64,000 nucleotides of DNA from Marinobacterium mangrovicola (GCF_004339595.1 NZ_SMFU01000008.1:310001-374000), one strand, 5' to 3'. Positions 20,471-26,823 are shown, counted from the first letter of the stretch. Program-made: numbers and translations. Notes: generated from the letters alone by a model not told the origin.

Positions 20471-21466
20471 TTACTGGGCGGCGAGGGCTTGCTGGGTACG
20501 CTCAAGCAGGTTGTCGTCGAGCTTGCCGGCGAACTCGTCATACACTGGGGTCATCGCCTGGCTGAACTTCTGCAGCTGCTCCGGGCTCAGGCTGACGATC
20601 TCGGTACCGCCGGCGGCTTCGATGCCATCCAGGTAGGCCTGCTCGCGGGCGATGGAGCGCTCACGCTGGTACTCACCGGCTTCACGCACGGCGGCTTTCA
20701 GCATCTGCTGGTTTTCCGGACTCTGCTGATCGAACCAGGTTTTGCTGAAGATAAACGCGGTAGCCAGGTAGCCGTGGTTGGAGAGCATCAGGTCATCCTG
20801 CACCTCGTAGAACTTCATCTGCGAGATGGAGACCAGCGGGTTCTCCTGGCACTCCACCACACCCTGCTGCAGCGCGGTGTAGGTTTCGCTGAAGGCGATC
20901 GGTACCGGGTTGGAGCCCAGCGCCTTGTACTGGGAGATCAGCAGCGGGCTTTCCATCACGCGCACCTTGCGGCCATCCAGATCGTCGGGGGAGGTTACCG
21001 CGTGGTTGCAGGTCAGCTGCTTGAAGCCGCTTTCCCAGAACATGGCCGGTTCAAAACCCGCCTTGCGCAGGCCAGAGAGCACCTCGTCACCGATGGGACC
21101 GTCCAGCAGTTCATAGGCCGCTTCGCGGGACGGGAACAGGAAAGGCATATCGATCAGCTGCAGGTTCTTGTTAAAGCCGCTGAGCTTGGCGGTGGGGATC
21201 GGGGCGGCTTCGACGGCACCGAACTGCATCTGCTGCGCTACCTGAACATCATCGCCGAGGGCGTTGTTCGGGTAGATGTTGACCTCATATTCGCCGTTGG
21301 AGCGCTCCTCGATCAGCTGCTTCAGGCGCTCGGCGCCTTCGTGCTGGGCGCTGTCTTCCGTCATATCGTGATGCAGCTTGATCACGGAGGCTGCCTGAGC
21401 GGTCAGGGCGGTGGCAGACATGGCCAGGGTCATGGCGCTGATCAGGGTTTTGAGCGGCTTATTCAT
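20471..21466 (-). CDS. TRAP transporter substrate-binding protein (DctP family)
   Basis: A 331-residue periplasmic binding protein with signal peptide ending near TALTAQA. DctP blocks: IKLHHDMTEDSAQHEGAERLKQLIEERSNG, DLDGRKVRVMESPLLISQYKALGSNPVPI with the conserved carboxylate-binding Arg, and YTALQQGVVECQENPL. First gene of the dctPQM-amidase-HpxZ-gntR run; GntR-type palindromes lie 47 and 151 bases upstream. It is unlike the orphan DctP at 4025, so two different ligands are expected. Confidence 0.93.
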   Translation of the reverse strand: MNKPLKTLISAMTLAMSATALTAQAASVIKLHHDMTEDSAQHEGAERLKQLIEERSNGEYEVNIYPNNALGDDVQVAQQMQFGAVEAAPIPTAKLSGFNKNLQLIDMPFLFPSREAAYELLDGPIGDEVLSGLRKAGFEPAMFWESGFKQLTCNHAVTSPDDLDGRKVRVMESPLLISQYKALGSNPVPIAFSETYTALQQGVVECQENPLVSISQMKFYEVQDDLMLSNHGYLATAFIFSKTWFDQQSPENQQMLKAAVREAGEYQRERSIAREQAYLDGIEAAGGTEIVSLSPEQLQKFSQAMTPVYDEFAGKLDDNLLERTQQALAAQ

Positions 21467-21512
21467 CTATCTCTTTCCTTGTCTCGGCGGTTAGGGATTG
21501 TTAGTAACCTTT

Positions 21513-21522
21513 TTGTATACAA
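21513..21522. promoter_or_regulatory. GntR-type operator, site 1
   Basis: TTGTATACAA is a perfect 10-bp palindrome 47 bases upstream of the dctP start, and this sequence is common for FCD-type GntR repressors. The rest of the 365-base gap (21467-21831) holds one further related site and no supported gene. Confidence 0.65.
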
Positions 21523-21616
21523 GAGCAAGATGAGTGCCAGTTATAAAAACAACTAAGAATCAATGGGTTGTGAATATTCAGGGAGAGGTGGTCTAAATTG
21601 GTGCGCTATTTTGGCT

Positions 21617-21626
21617 TTGTATACAG
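21617..21626. promoter_or_regulatory. GntR-type operator, site 2
   Basis: TTGTATACAG, nine of ten bases identical to the first site, with centres 104 bp apart. Two spaced sites would allow looping or cooperative repression by the GntR protein encoded at the end of the operon. Confidence 0.5.
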
Positions 21627-21831
21627 AGATTCTGTCTGCTTTTGGTGCGTTTGTGGTCAGACGCCTTGGCGAGCTAAGTGTGAAGGGGCGGGATGAGCGC
21701 AGATTGTCTCGGATAGCTCGAGACCCAGGGCGGGAAAAGTGGCTCTTAAGAAAGGTGTCTCGACATTGTGTAGCGAGGGAGGGGGAGCTAAAAGCGCCAG
21801 TGCGCCGTCGCTGCTAACTGGACGAAGTTGG

Positions 21832-22254
21832 TCACTTCAGCGGCAAAACACCGTAGTGCTTACCCATGCTGGCGCAGTACTTGGTCCATTCGATGTTCTC
21901 ACTGAAGTTGGCCAGAAAACTGAAATCGGAAGAATCAAACCAGCGCTCAGCCCAGTACAACCGCTTATCCGCGTAGATCTGTGCGATAAACTGGTCCGGG
22001 TCCGCCTTGCCTTCCGTTTCGGCGCGGGGAACCGCATGGATTTTAAATTCAGTGGATACCGCCTGCATCCGCTGGATCTGATCATCGGGCTTGCCCTGGT
22101 AACCCGCCGACTCGGCCAGCACATCATAGATCGCCGCACACTCCGCCATGCTGACAGAGATATCCTGAGCAGTGGCTTGGCCAGTGGTGCAGGCCAGTAG
22201 GGTTAGTAGCAACAGGTGTGGTGATTTCGTTGGTCGAGTGAAGGTGTTAGGCAT
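21832..22254 (-). CDS. Secreted protein of unknown function
   Basis: A 140-residue protein with an N-terminal hydrophobic run (HLLLLTLLACTTGQATAQ) that reads as a signal peptide, with a Cys that could alternatively be lipidated. The mature part has two Cys and no motif I recognise. Its GC content is nearer to the chromosome than to the AT-rich genes to its right. The ATG lies within the last codons of the neighbouring cassette gene (8-base overlap), so a later start is possible. Function unknown. Confidence 0.6.
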   Translation of the reverse strand: MPNTFTRPTKSPHLLLLTLLACTTGQATAQDISVSMAECAAIYDVLAESAGYQGKPDDQIQRMQAVSTEFKIHAVPRAETEGKADPDQFIAQIYADKRLYWAERWFDSSDFSFLANFSENIEWTKYCASMGKHYGVLPLK

Positions 22255-22942
22255 ATTTGTACCTCAATTCCTCCTCGGCTATGGGTACTAAGTTAAACAG
22301 CTCAGAATCGTTCTCGCGATGAACGCAAAAAACTTGGCCATTACCGTTGGGGCCCAATGCCCAAAAAAGCTTTGGCCAAGACCTGCGGATGCTCTGAACT
22401 TTACGATACGCATTCTTTTCTACAGAGTTTTCTGGGTCTGCATTGAGAGGAGGGTTTCTGCAATGCTCATTCATAAACGCTAATAGCTTTTCTATTTCCT
22501 TCATGTCCTTCTTAACTTCACAGGCGACCAGCTCTTTATTCGACGCATTTTCATAACAAACCAAGTCAAACGCCCAAGTTTTTGATTGAGCACCAAGGTT
22601 ATCAATGGGCCACCCATACTCCACATGTAACCTCGCAAGAGCGCCGATTGTGATAATTGGCTCTATCCAAAGCGTTATAGGCCGGGGTATTACGCTCTTT
22701 TCACCTTCCCAAAAGATCTGCTCTTTTGCAGAGCTTTTAGGTGCAACAAAGGACCCCTTTGACTCAGAGACAAGTCCATCATCGACTGCTTGCATAAACC
22801 AGAGTGCATCAAATTCATGGAGCCTTTCAATCGATGATAACTTAAATCCATCTAGTGGGTACTTTCGGTGGGGGGCATTGCAGAAAGATGGTAACCACTC
22901 CTTTTGCAACCGGTCAGTGAATGCTGTAATTATATCTTTCAC
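22247..22942 (-). CDS. Integron-cassette protein of unknown function with a PD-(D/E)XK-like motif
   Basis: A 231-residue cytosolic protein I do not recognise. Residues ~124-146 read AFDLVCYENASNKELV followed by ACEVKKD; Asp126, Glu142 and Lys144 fit the D-x(15)-E-x-K pattern of the PD-(D/E)XK nuclease fold, so a nuclease-like domain is possible. AT-rich relative to neighbours. An attC site (22967-23053) lies immediately upstream and marks it as a cassette. Its TAA stop falls within GCCTAAC, a canonical core-site sequence, but no convincing attC follows. Confidence 0.65.
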   Translation of the reverse strand: MKDIITAFTDRLQKEWLPSFCNAPHRKYPLDGFKLSSIERLHEFDALWFMQAVDDGLVSESKGSFVAPKSSAKEQIFWEGEKSVIPRPITLWIEPIITIGALARLHVEYGWPIDNLGAQSKTWAFDLVCYENASNKELVACEVKKDMKEIEKLLAFMNEHCRNPPLNADPENSVEKNAYRKVQSIRRSWPKLFWALGPNGNGQVFCVHRENDSELFNLVPIAEEELRYKYA

Positions 22943-22966
22943 TGGAAATTCCTATCTTGAATCTTG

Positions 22967-23053
22967 AGGTAACGCTGCAGTTAAAGGGCCGAAAAAGCGT
23001 AGCTTTGGATGTACCAGTAAGCAAAGCGAATGATTTTCAACGCTTTGTTATGT
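22967..23053 (-). other. Integron attC recombination site (cassette of the 23054-23662 gene)
   Basis: On the minus strand the site runs from ACATAAC (R'') to GTTACCT (R'), 87 bp. TAAC pairs with GTTA; after short unpaired spacers, GTT-(G)-AAA pairs with TTTAAC, leaving one extrahelical G, the mark of attC sites. R'' is the exact reverse complement of GTTATGT at this cassette's upstream boundary (23684-23678), as expected of a mobile cassette. It abuts the stop codon of the gene at 23054. Confidence 0.82.
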
Positions 23054-23662
23054 TTATTTAGTTCGAACCTTTTCTCCAAAGAACTCTTCAACTTTCGCCG
23101 TTGATTCGGCTATTTTCTGGCTGAACTCATCCTCGTCAGATGTAAAATAGACAACCTTGTCATTCTCTATGATTCGCTCCGGGCTATTATCTACACTAGC
23201 TCCTGGCCCCGCATAGGCACCTTTCAACCAAAAGTGAAGCCAAATCGCTCCGCGGACATTTCCAATTCTCTGCTGAATTTCATTGAAGCAATCCTCTGCC
23301 TCTTTACCCCAAATAACTTTTGCCTCAAGACGAATCGTTTGTAACTCTACCCATTTCTCATTGAGGTACGTTATTCGCTCGCTATAAATTCGTTGTTCCT
23401 CTTCAAGTCGGCGACCAGCCTCGACTTCCTCTTGGCTAAGATAAAGCATTGGATTTCTCACGGACTGAAGTGCCTGCTGGACTTCGTATGTCTTTAGTAT
23501 GGCTTTCTTTGCAATCTCATACTCACTTGTGCCCCTGAGCTGCCTATTCCACGTAAAAAGCCCAAGTCCACCAATAGTAAGGGCGCCAATCGTACCGAAA
23601 ATAGAGACTACATCTTTCGTCAGTGACCAGTTTATATCGCTTATTGTGATACAAAGGTTCAA
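23054..23662 (-). CDS. Integron-cassette membrane-anchored protein of unknown function
   Basis: A 202-residue protein with one N-terminal membrane helix (about residues 17-37, VVSIFGTIGALTIGGLGLFTW) and then a long, charged, mostly helical region likely to form a coiled coil (YLSQEEVEAGRRLEEEQRIY and following). No enzyme motif seen. The gene is flanked on both sides by attC sites and AT-rich, so it is a mobile cassette. This layout recalls small membrane-anchored accessory proteins, but no function can be given. Confidence 0.75.
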   Translation of the reverse strand: MNLCITISDINWSLTKDVVSIFGTIGALTIGGLGLFTWNRQLRGTSEYEIAKKAILKTYEVQQALQSVRNPMLYLSQEEVEAGRRLEEEQRIYSERITYLNEKWVELQTIRLEAKVIWGKEAEDCFNEIQQRIGNVRGAIWLHFWLKGAYAGPGASVDNSPERIIENDKVVYFTSDEDEFSQKIAESTAKVEEFFGEKVRTK

Positions 23663-23677
23663 TACAGTCTCCTAGAA

Positions 23678-23746
23678 ACATAACGCCATTATAAATTGCC
23701 GAAAGAAGCGCAGCGTATTGAGGTCAATTTCATAATTTTGTTAGTA
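23678..23746 (-). other. Integron attC recombination site (cassette of the radical SAM gene)
   Basis: On the minus strand a 69-bp site from TACTAAC (R'') to GTTATGT (R'). TAAC/GTTA pair; then AAA and GGC are spacers; ATTAT-(G)-AAATTG pairs with CAATTT-ATAAT leaving a single extrahelical G. R'' equals the reverse complement of GTTAGTA at the upstream boundary of the radical SAM cassette (25134-25128). These independent matches make the site convincing. Confidence 0.88.
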
Positions 23747-23769
23747 TTCCATCAATACGACCACACCTA

Positions 23770-25113
23770 CTATCGAGTTAAATCATTCTTAAAATCTTCA
23801 AACCTATAATCTCTAGAAAAATATGAAAAGGACTTAAGATAGAAATAGTCTTCCTTAGTCATAAATTCTTCGCTTATTTCTTTAGATATATCTATAGCCT
23901 TGCCGTGGTCTATTTCATCACTTAAATTAATATGCTGAACACCCTCTGTAGGCATGTGGCTCCTTGACGCGCCATAACTCTGCAACTCTTTTATATAATC
24001 CTCAGTATTGCACTCCCAACCAAAAACAATTAAAGGCCCTACAGAAACACCCTTTATGTATTGCCTATGAAGCATCAACCACTCGATAGTTTCAGAAATA
24101 GTTTCACTTGTTTCTCCGGCAAAAAGAAGTATGTTAATCTTTACAAAGATGCCATTAACGTGACACTCTTTCAACAATCTCGAAGCGCGATCCAAATATA
24201 ATGCAGCGTTTCTTGTTTTGCCCATTCTAATAAGTTGAGATTTTGAAGCGCTCTCCAGCCCCAAATCTAGAACTTTTAAGCCAGCTTCTGCCAAATGCTT
24301 TACTAGCTTCAAATTTATAGTATCGACTCTGCTTTCCGAGCGCCAATCAAAAAATAATAACTCATGCTCTCGCTTCTCTTTAAGACTTTCAACCCATGAT
24401 CTTGTAGGGATAAACATTGACGACTCAAAATATATATTCATTTTATTTAGATTATCGTCAATAAGTATTGATTTCGCCTCATCAATAATAATTGATGATG
24501 ATTTTAATCTTTGCAGTGGCTCGTTTTTTTCCTGACAAAATGAACATCCCATACCACACCCTCTAGAAACTTCTAGACTAGGCTGATAAAGCTCTCTTTC
24601 ATATAACAAATTATAGTCAAGAGAGTTTTTCAGGGTGGAAACAGGTATCTTTAATTTTTCAAACTCAAAAGATAGACATGACTCAACAATTCTAGTGATA
24701 TTTCTATCAGCCAAGCCAGGAACAACTATATCGGCATCAGGAACAAGTGATTGCATTAAGTCACTTCTGTCTGCAATTACCCACCTTCCTCCAATTATTA
24801 TTTTCACCGATGAATTTATTTCTTTAATAAGGGATATAAATTCATTCACCCACGATATTGCATAAAAACTTGGAACTGATATTAAAAAAGGCAATGTGCT
24901 TAAATTACAAAAACCAAAATCAATACATTTTTTTACTGTTTCAATAGGGCTTTCGAAAAGACCTTGAATCTGTAATGCATTCCAACCCGATTTCCTTAAC
25001 TCCGTAGCAAGTGATAACAAGCCATAATTTAAATATCTATTCTGCCTATTTATCACCGTATCTGATTTTTTAACGATCAACTGGCCTGCACTTATACAAA
25101 ATATACGATCCAT
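23770..25113 (-). CDS. Cobalamin-type radical SAM protein carried as an integron cassette
   Basis: A 447-residue enzyme. Residues ~25-165 resemble a B12-binding-type Rossmann domain (VKIIIGGRW, DADIVVPGLADRN), though without an obvious D-x-H-x-x-G motif. The radical SAM core follows with the [4Fe-4S] motif CGMGCSFC (Cys186, 190, 193) and GLKVLDLGLESASKSQLIRMGK, a typical TIM-barrel strand with the conserved Glu. Strongly AT-rich and bounded by attC-type sites, so horizontally acquired. No precursor peptide or pathway partner is adjacent; reaction unknown. Confidence 0.85.
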   Translation of the reverse strand: MDRIFCISAGQLIVKKSDTVINRQNRYLNYGLLSLATELRKSGWNALQIQGLFESPIETVKKCIDFGFCNLSTLPFLISVPSFYAISWVNEFISLIKEINSSVKIIIGGRWVIADRSDLMQSLVPDADIVVPGLADRNITRIVESCLSFEFEKLKIPVSTLKNSLDYNLLYERELYQPSLEVSRGCGMGCSFCQEKNEPLQRLKSSSIIIDEAKSILIDDNLNKMNIYFESSMFIPTRSWVESLKEKREHELLFFDWRSESRVDTINLKLVKHLAEAGLKVLDLGLESASKSQLIRMGKTRNAALYLDRASRLLKECHVNGIFVKINILLFAGETSETISETIEWLMLHRQYIKGVSVGPLIVFGWECNTEDYIKELQSYGASRSHMPTEGVQHINLSDEIDHGKAIDISKEISEEFMTKEDYFYLKSFSYFSRDYRFEDFKNDLTR

Positions 25114-25127
25114 GTATGACCTCTAAA

Positions 25128-25177
25128 TACTAACAGTCTGTTAATGAGGTCTGCGACCTCATAATAATTATTAGCGG
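25128..25177 (-). other. attC-like or attI-like site at the upstream end of the radical SAM cassette
   Basis: On the minus strand CGCTAAT ... GTTAGTA bracket an 8-bp perfect hairpin, ATGAGGTC-GCA-GACCTCAT, and TTAACAGACT precedes the GTTAG core much as in other attC right arms. The left core is CTAAT, not CTAAC, so this may be a decayed attC or the attI remnant. No integrase gene is seen to its right. Confidence 0.5.
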
Positions 25178-25589
25178 GTATACCTTTTAATTATCGATAT
25201 TGTGGCTTCTGTAAAATAAGCTATTGAAAATAAAAAGAAAAAAAGACAGCTATTCGCAGCAGACAGATTAAAAGGTAGACGATTCGCTCGATGTAGGCCT
25301 GAAAAGGTAAAGCGCTCTAAAGTTGCTGAGGAAGCTGCCGGAGGCGCTGGGGCGGTGTGCAGAGGTATGCAATTTACCGTTAACGCTGGGAGTGCACTGC
25401 AGGTATTCATTATCAGTCCCTTAGCTTACCTACCGTAGAATCTATGCGTCTACTGCTTGTCTGACGCTGGAGTCAGTTTGCTACGGTTGGGAGAAAGGCA
25501 CAAGGTAGATAAGGGAGTTCTTGTGTAAGCACTTTGTATGAGGTTCGCTAACCCGGCTGGGGATGCGACGAATGCCTTTGATTGTTGCT

Positions 25590-25821
25590 CTTAAACCACC
25601 TCCGATGGAGGTGGTGATCGTTTAGTCGAGGCTCTGCCTTTCTCTTGCCGTATCGATAACGGGGCTCGGTGTCTCATGGCTGTCTGAGCGCATAATCGAT
25701 CCCCTTTGGCACAGGGAAGTCGGCGTAGCCGACCAAGCCTTAGGGGCGGTTTGGGATTGCAAAGGGACTTACTTAGCAACGAAAGCCGCACAAGTCTCTT
25801 TGCTCGGCAGCAGCCGAAACC
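25590..25821. ncRNA. Structured dispersed repeat, copy B (putative ncRNA)
   Basis: Most of the 912-base stretch 25114-26025 has no supported gene. It contains ACCACCTCC-GAT-GGAGGTGGT (25597-25617), then a core homologous to copy A from 25715: GTCGGC-GTA-GCCGAC, TAGGGGCGGTTTGGGAT, a hairpin GCAAAGGGACTT/AAGTCTCTTTGC, and CGGC-AGCA-GCCG. Hairpins occupy the same order as in copy A, but their stem bases differ in matched pairs. That points to selection on RNA structure instead of protein coding. Confidence 0.6.
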
Positions 25822-25964
25822 GGCCTAAAAAAGGACACGGATGTGGGGGCTCCCGGCATTCGTCGGTGGGTTTAGCCAGGCTCCCTGCTATGCAGGTGGA
25901 TTTTTATTCTTAGCTGGCCTGAATCCGTGGAAACGCTGGCCTCATCCGTGGCTGATGAGAAGCC

Positions 25965-25997
25965 AATAAAAAAGCGCGGAGCCAGAAGCTGCCGCGC
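25965..25997 (-). terminator. Rho-independent terminator after the amino-acid-type ABC/ureohydrolase operon
   Basis: On the minus strand GCGCGG (25997-25992) pairs with CCGCGC (25979-25974), followed by TTTTTTATT. It starts 29 bases past the stop of the ABC ATPase gene and closes the six-gene run that begins at 31079. Confidence 0.8.
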
Positions 25998-26025
25998 CAA
26001 AACAGGTTGGGTAAACCTTGGAAAA

Positions 26026-26823
26026 TCAGAGGGTGCCGTTGCGCTCGGACCAGGTGGCCAGAAACGCTTTCAGGCGCGGTGATGTGGGGTTGGCGAACAG
26101 TTCTGACGGCGGGCCCTGTTCTTCGATACGGCCGTCGGCCAGGAAGATCACCTTGTCCGATACCTGGGCGGCAAAGCCCATTTCGTGGGTGACGATCACC
26201 ATGGTCATCCCTTCCTCCGCCAGCTGGCGCATTACCTTGAGTACCTCGCCGACCAGTTCCGGGTCCAGCGCTGAGGTGGGTTCATCGAACAGCAGGATGC
26301 GCGGTTCCTTGGCCAGCGCACGGGCGATGGCGACACGCTGCTGCTGACCGCCAGAGAGAGTACCGGGGAATACATCGGCCTTGTGCGCCATATCCACCTT
26401 GGTCAGGGCGGCCAGGGCTTTCTCCTTGGCTTCGGCGCGGGAGAAGCCGGCCACCAGCATCAGCGGCGCCATCACGTTCTCCAGCACGCTTTTGTGCGGC
26501 CAGAGATTGAACTGCTGGAACACCATGCCCACGTTGCGCAGGTCTTTCTGAACCTGGTGCTTGGGCAGGGGCTTGAGGTTACCGGCGTTATCGGAGCCGT
26601 AACCGATCATCTTGCCTTCGACGGTGATCTCGCCACCCTCATAGGTTTCAAGAAAATCGATACAGCGCAGCATGGTGCTCTTGCCGGAGCCGGAGCCGCC
26701 GATGATGCAGACGACCTCGCTCTGGTAGACATCCAGGTCGATCCCCTTGAGGACCTCGTTGTCGCCGAACCTTTTCTTCACGTCGATCATGCGGATGACC
26801 GGCTTCTGTTTCACGTTGCTCAT
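26026..26823 (-). CDS. Polar amino-acid-type ABC transporter ATP-binding protein (GlnQ/HisP family)
   Basis: A 265-residue ATPase with Walker [15 protein letters not shown], signature [15 protein letters not shown] and Walker [20 protein letters not shown], the last being the hallmark of polar amino-acid importers. It energises import through the two permeases just upstream. The four transporter genes surround two ureohydrolase genes, so the cargo is probably a guanidino or amidino compound. Last gene before the terminator. Confidence 0.93.

Follow-up and report, generated by a model that had tools for sequence, protein, structure and literature searches.

The stretch analyzed here, hereafter the window, spans 64,000 nucleotides of contig 2 of the Marinobacterium mangrovicola draft genome (GCF_004339595.1, NZ_SMFU01000008.1:310001-374000; 4.98 Mb in 15 contigs) and carries a small integron cassette array on its minus strand. 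Read in that direction, the order is an attI module, a gene for a radical S-adenosylmethionine (SAM) protein, an attC site, a gene encoding 202 amino acids (aa), a second attC site, a gene encoding 231 aa and a chromosomal gene (Table 1). The cassette genes are AT-rich, with GC content falling from ~60% to 35–40%. An initial annotation, made by a model from the sequence alone, had recognized the cassettes and described them as an integrase-less array of the type termed cluster of attC sites lacking integron-integrase (CALIN; IntegronFinder, PMC9024848).

Both attC sites proposed in the initial annotation were borne out, at the same coordinates and on the minus strand, when a covariance model was run over the region and the genome. 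The model (R2) was built from 30 sites from other genomes and was free of window sequence; since these training sites had been chosen for pairing, their high covariation was not used as evidence. Within positions 20500-26500 of the window it gave two matches in total, with E-values of 4e-6 for the attC site of cassette 1 (attC1) and 0.0023 for that of cassette 2 (attC2). Over 123 kb the corresponding values were 8e-5 and 0.048, and no third match appeared in the 64-kb window. The array thus holds the minimum of at least two attC sites by which a CALIN is recognized, attC2 being weak. Across the whole genome, model R2 returned 7 matches at E ≤ 10, each of them within one of three other arrays, which shows it to be specific, if incompletely sensitive. 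An initial, stricter box score had missed both window sites, and a relaxed R/L-box score was used together with the covariance model instead. It reached 16.0 for attC1, compared with at most 14.1 among shuffled controls in 648 kb, and stayed below 13 for attC2, owing to a bulge in L'. On folding, the bottom strand of attC1 forms the attC hairpin and attC2 folds otherwise; an extrahelical G is present in each. A pattern search for the joined core and an Rfam search over 20-27 kb gave no match. With filters off, the attC model produced short spurious matches and did not properly recover the window sites, perhaps because its clipped loop does not span the variable part.

By direct reading, the upstream core of each complete cassette (that of cassette 1 lies at 25128-25134) agrees with the reverse complement of its own R'' at 7 of 7 positions. 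Together with the attC sites, these matching cores uphold the view that they are true cassettes. The gene of cassette 3 has an R''-like GCCTAAC at its stop codon and no attC site downstream of it by model R2 within 20500-26500, which indicates that this cassette was truncated into the chromosomal 140-aa gene. The array supplies the first codons of the latter in this genome, and chromosomal homology to M. lutimaris DSM 22012, of which the window genome is a close relative, picks up again at 22239.

Directly before cassette 1 stands a 64-bp element that ends in CTGTTA where the cassettes begin. The initial annotation missed it: its interval (22247-25177) ends inside this module. The same element adjoins intI on contig 1, in other Marinobacterium genomes and in a second genus. 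We call it attI, a presumptive assignment based on its position, its conservation beside intI and the exchange of cargo described below. A covariance model of attI detects the window copy with an E-value of 3.9e-13 in a search of the whole genome; its hairpin shows compensating pair changes among copies, and TATTATG is nearly invariant. This genome has four attI copies (in the window, next to intI on contig 1, at C1:972739 and at C8:52003) and one intI. The window attI is 81.7% identical over 60 bp to the contig-1 copy and 96.8% identical over 62 bp to the intI-adjacent attI of another genus, and it shares the hairpin type GAGGTC with the contig-8 copy. A candidate cassette promoter (Pc) within attI, at 25161..25190 on the minus strand (TTAAAA-18-TATTAT), comes from a consensus scan whose number of matches was not above that in shuffles. 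Truncated attI copies occur within cassette arrays at C8:55986 and at C18:211449 of M. lutimaris, and no attI was found in plasmids and phages. As attI heads the array and no intI adjoins it, the window holds an apparent integron platform that lacks only its integrase.

Table 1. Features of the array and its flanks, listed in minus-strand order (positions counted from the first nucleotide of the window)
Feature	Position	Strand	Details
ABC transporter ATPase, chromosomal, upstream of dock	26026..26823	-	protein identical in M. lutimaris
Element E, dock 5' leader	25392..25534	-	covarying hairpin and Shine-Dalgarno; fold; whole-genome matches
Leader open reading frame, 79 aa	25171..25410	-	start in E, end in attI
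attI module, 64 bp	25131..25194	-	hairpin TGAGGTC-GCA-GACCTCA, covarying; TTAACAG-A-CTGTTA; inferred crossover G25134/T25133
Cassette 1	23684..25133	-	1450 bp; core GTTAGTA = reverse complement of R'' TACTAAC
Cassette 1 gene, 447-aa B12-binding radical SAM protein	23770..25113	-	Pfam PF04055 8e-13, PF02310 2.8e-5
attC of cassette 1	23678..23746	-	31.1 bits; fold
Cassette 2	22973..23683	-	711 bp; core GTTATGT = reverse complement of R'' ACATAAC
Cassette 2 gene, 202-aa protein, N-terminal hydrophobic stretch	23054..23662	-	no known family
attC of cassette 2, bulged L box	22967..23053	-	19.9 bits
Cassette 3, truncated	22240..22972	-	upstream core GTTACCT; GCCTAAC at stop codon; remaining attC missing
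Cassette 3 gene, 231-aa protein	22247..22942	-	no known family
Chromosomal gene closing dock, 140 aa	21832..22254	-	88% identical in M. lutimaris

By the operational definition, the CALIN label stands. Neither intI nor an intI remnant was found beside the window cassettes, no intI homology was detected in the 3 kb upstream, and the same absence of any intI trace holds for all three integrase-less attI sites of this genome, which we refer to as docks. The lack of an integrase is only local, however, and an orphan cluster in an integrase-free genome is contradicted by the intI found on contig 1. This gene is full length (438 bits, no stops) and heads its own cassette array with good attC sites downstream. 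Its product aligns from end to end with 2A3V, an integron integrase of solved structure (1.3e-110), and has the catalytic residues R, HxxR and Y conserved. At C3:314765-314929, away from the docks examined, lies an intI remnant of 53 C-terminal residues that contains a stop. Within the genus, some genomes (G005, G006 and G002) have two or three intI genes on separate contigs.

The orthologous dock of M. lutimaris is preceded by the same ABC-transporter gene and followed by the same 140-aa gene, with flanks ~95% identical. Its leader and attI are 85% identical to those of the window and it has no intI. None of its five cassettes is related to those of the window, and homology between the two loci ends 1 nt past attI; the cargo has been replaced at the attI crossover. 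The closest relative hence carries the same locus with other cassettes, not the same genes devoid of attC sites, an arrangement that would have spoken against the initial annotation. For the remaining two integrase-less docks here, homology to the M. lutimaris orthologues is lost at 0 and +8; in other genera, the corresponding points for four dock pairs are +1, +2, -1 and +6. In all, seven pairs of orthologous docks diverge no more than 8 nt from attI. At the contig-8 dock, the cassettes far from attI are shared with M. lutimaris at 97% and those close to it differ, the pattern expected from insertion at attI. Because both sister species have an integrase-less leader and attI, their common ancestor very probably had them too, with the cargo changing later, which would imply an integrase acting from elsewhere. 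Within the genus, the window locus was found in this genome and M. lutimaris only, and the flanking solute-binding protein, used as a query, matched M. lutimaris and otherwise distant genera alone. A segment of ~360 bp upstream of the dock (25545-25905) is absent at that point in M. lutimaris; it holds a ~160-bp repeat that has further copies in the genome, among them one upstream of the C1:972739 dock.

Dispersed attI sites are not confined to this genome. Among 116 genomes of the family, the attI covariance model found 112 copies (E ≤ 1e-5) in 44, and an intI match lay within 1.5 kb of 16 of the 112. Twenty-three genomes had at least two attI copies that outnumbered their intI matches, a count to be read with draft assemblies in mind, as these may conceal some intI genes; one single-contig genome (G080) has attI copies and no intI match. 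Forty-nine attI loci were analyzed in detail. At 41 of them attC sites follow in cassette direction, with 110 attC matches downstream, 2 reversed and 2 upstream, compared to 1 in a 266-kb shuffled control. Upstream of these loci, intI homology was absent in 33 cases, substantial in 9 and reduced to fragments of 34-91 residues in 7, every one of the latter outside the genus. Such fragments show that some docks arose through loss of intI. A cassette-sized segment of ~515 bp is 88% identical between an integrase-less dock (G024 C10) and an intI-bearing integron (G115 C10:193903) of different genera, and docks therefore seem to draw on one cassette pool. An IS3-like element with two transposase open reading frames (ORFs) is present inside cassette arrays of this genome, of the M. 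lutimaris C18 dock and of docks in G012; its copies in this genome and M. lutimaris are 98% identical, and the identity is 82% in another genus.

The docks of this genus have a further component in common. Element E, located ~200-340 bp upstream of attI, recurs at 12 docks of the genus that lack an integrase (8 after merging orthologues) and was found neither at intI-adjacent integrons nor in the other genera compared. The possibility that E represents the far side of intI was rejected, as it is present at no intI-adjacent integron examined. At all 12 docks, a leader ORF of 50-92 codons starts within E, ends near attI and is open; the shuffle probability of such openness is 0.006-0.07 for a single dock, and 2e-11 for 12 docks or ~2e-7 for 8 independent ones when combined. 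The ORF sequence is unconserved and diverges faster than attI or E in 2 of 3 orthologous pairs, yet it stays open, and we rejected a conserved protein. Given this fast divergence and the fact that the sole indel in the three orthologous leader pairs is of 3 bases, translation of the leader rather than the peptide seems to matter. A fourth E copy in this genome (C2:688046-688175, minus strand) is accompanied by neither attI nor attC and stands directly upstream of a Lamassu operon (LmuA 1e-106, LmuB 4e-199). That E also precedes a defence operon suggests that captured cassettes and phage defence may be linked in their regulation.

The large radical SAM cassette had been singled out as unusual cargo, and we agree: the sole relative of its protein in the 116 family genomes is ~51% identical and has no attC nearby. 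Relatives of 38-40% identity reside on plasmids of other bacteria. The protein combines a radical SAM domain, an intact CxxxCxxC motif (CGMGCSFC, read directly) and a B12-binding domain that scores under its curated cut-off, as expected of a cobalamin-dependent radical SAM enzyme. The nearest NCBIfam models match it over parts only and a subfamily could not be assigned; no solved relative was found by sequence. Judging by family only, it most likely performs cobalamin-dependent radical methyl transfer. PADLOC matches were weak and were not taken as evidence of a role in defence. The proteins of cassettes 2 and 3 matched no known family.

We consider it highly probable that the window holds an integrase-less attI dock that is reloaded in trans by a distant IntI, with one integrase serving several docks. 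Such a dock would comprise element E, the leader ORF and attI, followed here by two complete cassettes and a truncated one, and would act as a chromosomal site that is fixed and inherited while its contents are exchanged. Acting in trans from a gene elsewhere in the cell, an IntI would bind the window attI and move cassettes in and out. The intact IntI of contig 1 is the present candidate, possibly preceded by an IntI since lost, and with four attI sites to one intI gene a single integrase may serve several docks. The leader or attI may also drive expression of the cassettes. Several considerations weigh against this reading. The case for recombination in trans is built on sequence comparison, and the greater similarity of the window attI to that of another genus means that a lost IntI could be responsible. 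The intI of M. lutimaris contains three stops, and part of the cassette difference may predate its decay. Some of the turnover could reflect differential loss from a longer ancestral array instead of new insertion. Finally, the 34-91-aa remnants at docks of other genera indicate that docks can arise by integrase loss.

These remnants, all from outside the genus, also lend something to a quite improbable alternative, in which the window preserves what is left of a second, formerly complete integron; its own integrase would have been lost, and its cassettes would now form a static fossil array. The GAGGTC-type attI of the window and of the contig-8 dock does match the integron of another genus better than the resident one, and the C-terminal remnant at C3:314765 can be counted in favour of this view. 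However, none of the three docks of this genome retains an intI trace, and the integrase-less arrangement of E, leader and attI, shared with M. lutimaris, predates the split of the two species, whose cassettes are nonetheless wholly different with a break at the crossover. It is hardly credible that the cassettes landed at a random genomic site of the attG type: off-site insertion of cassettes is on record (cited in PMC12901181 and PMC12444791), but the array is headed by a full 64-bp attI with its hairpin, which is found again at three other arrays, and M. lutimaris has this site with different cassettes. Insertion at an unrelated GTT site lacking attI is refuted by the attI module. A further proposal concerns the origin of docks and is compatible with reloading in trans, namely that E, leader and attI constitute a small mobile element copied around the genome, with cassettes following. 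Non-orthologous docks of one genome share E and attI and not the spacer or flanks, and one E copy lacks attI; on the other hand, neither terminal repeats, a transposase nor a target duplication was identified and dock positions are conserved between sister species, which makes this unlikely. More tentatively, the trans-reloaded dock may be part of a distributed integron, in which one integrase acting in trans serves several fixed, inherited attI docks and E, heading both docks and the Lamassu operon, places them under common control; this is possible, though we regard it as doubtful.

Related systems differ from the window in one or more respects. Unlike a CALIN, the window has a genuine attI and a conserved leader, and its cargo has been replaced at that attI. 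It resembles the sedentary chromosomal integron, a complete example of which is present on contig 1, in attI, attC and cassette structure, but its integrase is non-local and there are several attI docks per intI. The Shewanella prophage M16-3 contains a complete integron and an attI-headed CALIN (PMC9892861), yet this is a single prophage, involving neither docks spread across a family nor exchange at orthologous ones. In Xanthomonas, CALINs distant from intI likewise occupy conserved, recurrent chromosomal positions; in the available portion of that report, no attI is described at those loci (PMC12444791). Truncated attI copies such as those at C8:55986 and in M. lutimaris are akin to the delta-attI-type cassettes known from class 1 and 2 integrons (PMC12901181), whereas the window attI is full length and heads an array. 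Finally, ORF-11 of attI1 in class 1 integrons, which aids translation of cassettes (PMC8876359), is comparable to the leader ORF in being short, having its own ribosome site and running into attI; the leader, by contrast, is 50-92 aa long, starts in a separate conserved element and occurs at docks lacking intI. We found no description of dispersed attI docks of the present kind in the literature searched, a search that was not exhaustive.

Integron tools seek intI and attC. Descriptions of attI beyond class 1 are poor and it is no search target, so that clusters of cassettes lacking intI are classed as debris. In the present case attI is recognizable and traceable, and most of its copies in the family lie without an adjacent integrase. 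If confirmed, this would mean that functional integron platforms per genome are undercounted in such lineages, and the matched docks would make the action of IntI in trans on natural chromosomal sites directly testable. Should the distributed integron prove true, exchangeable cassettes and fixed defence genes would be under common control.
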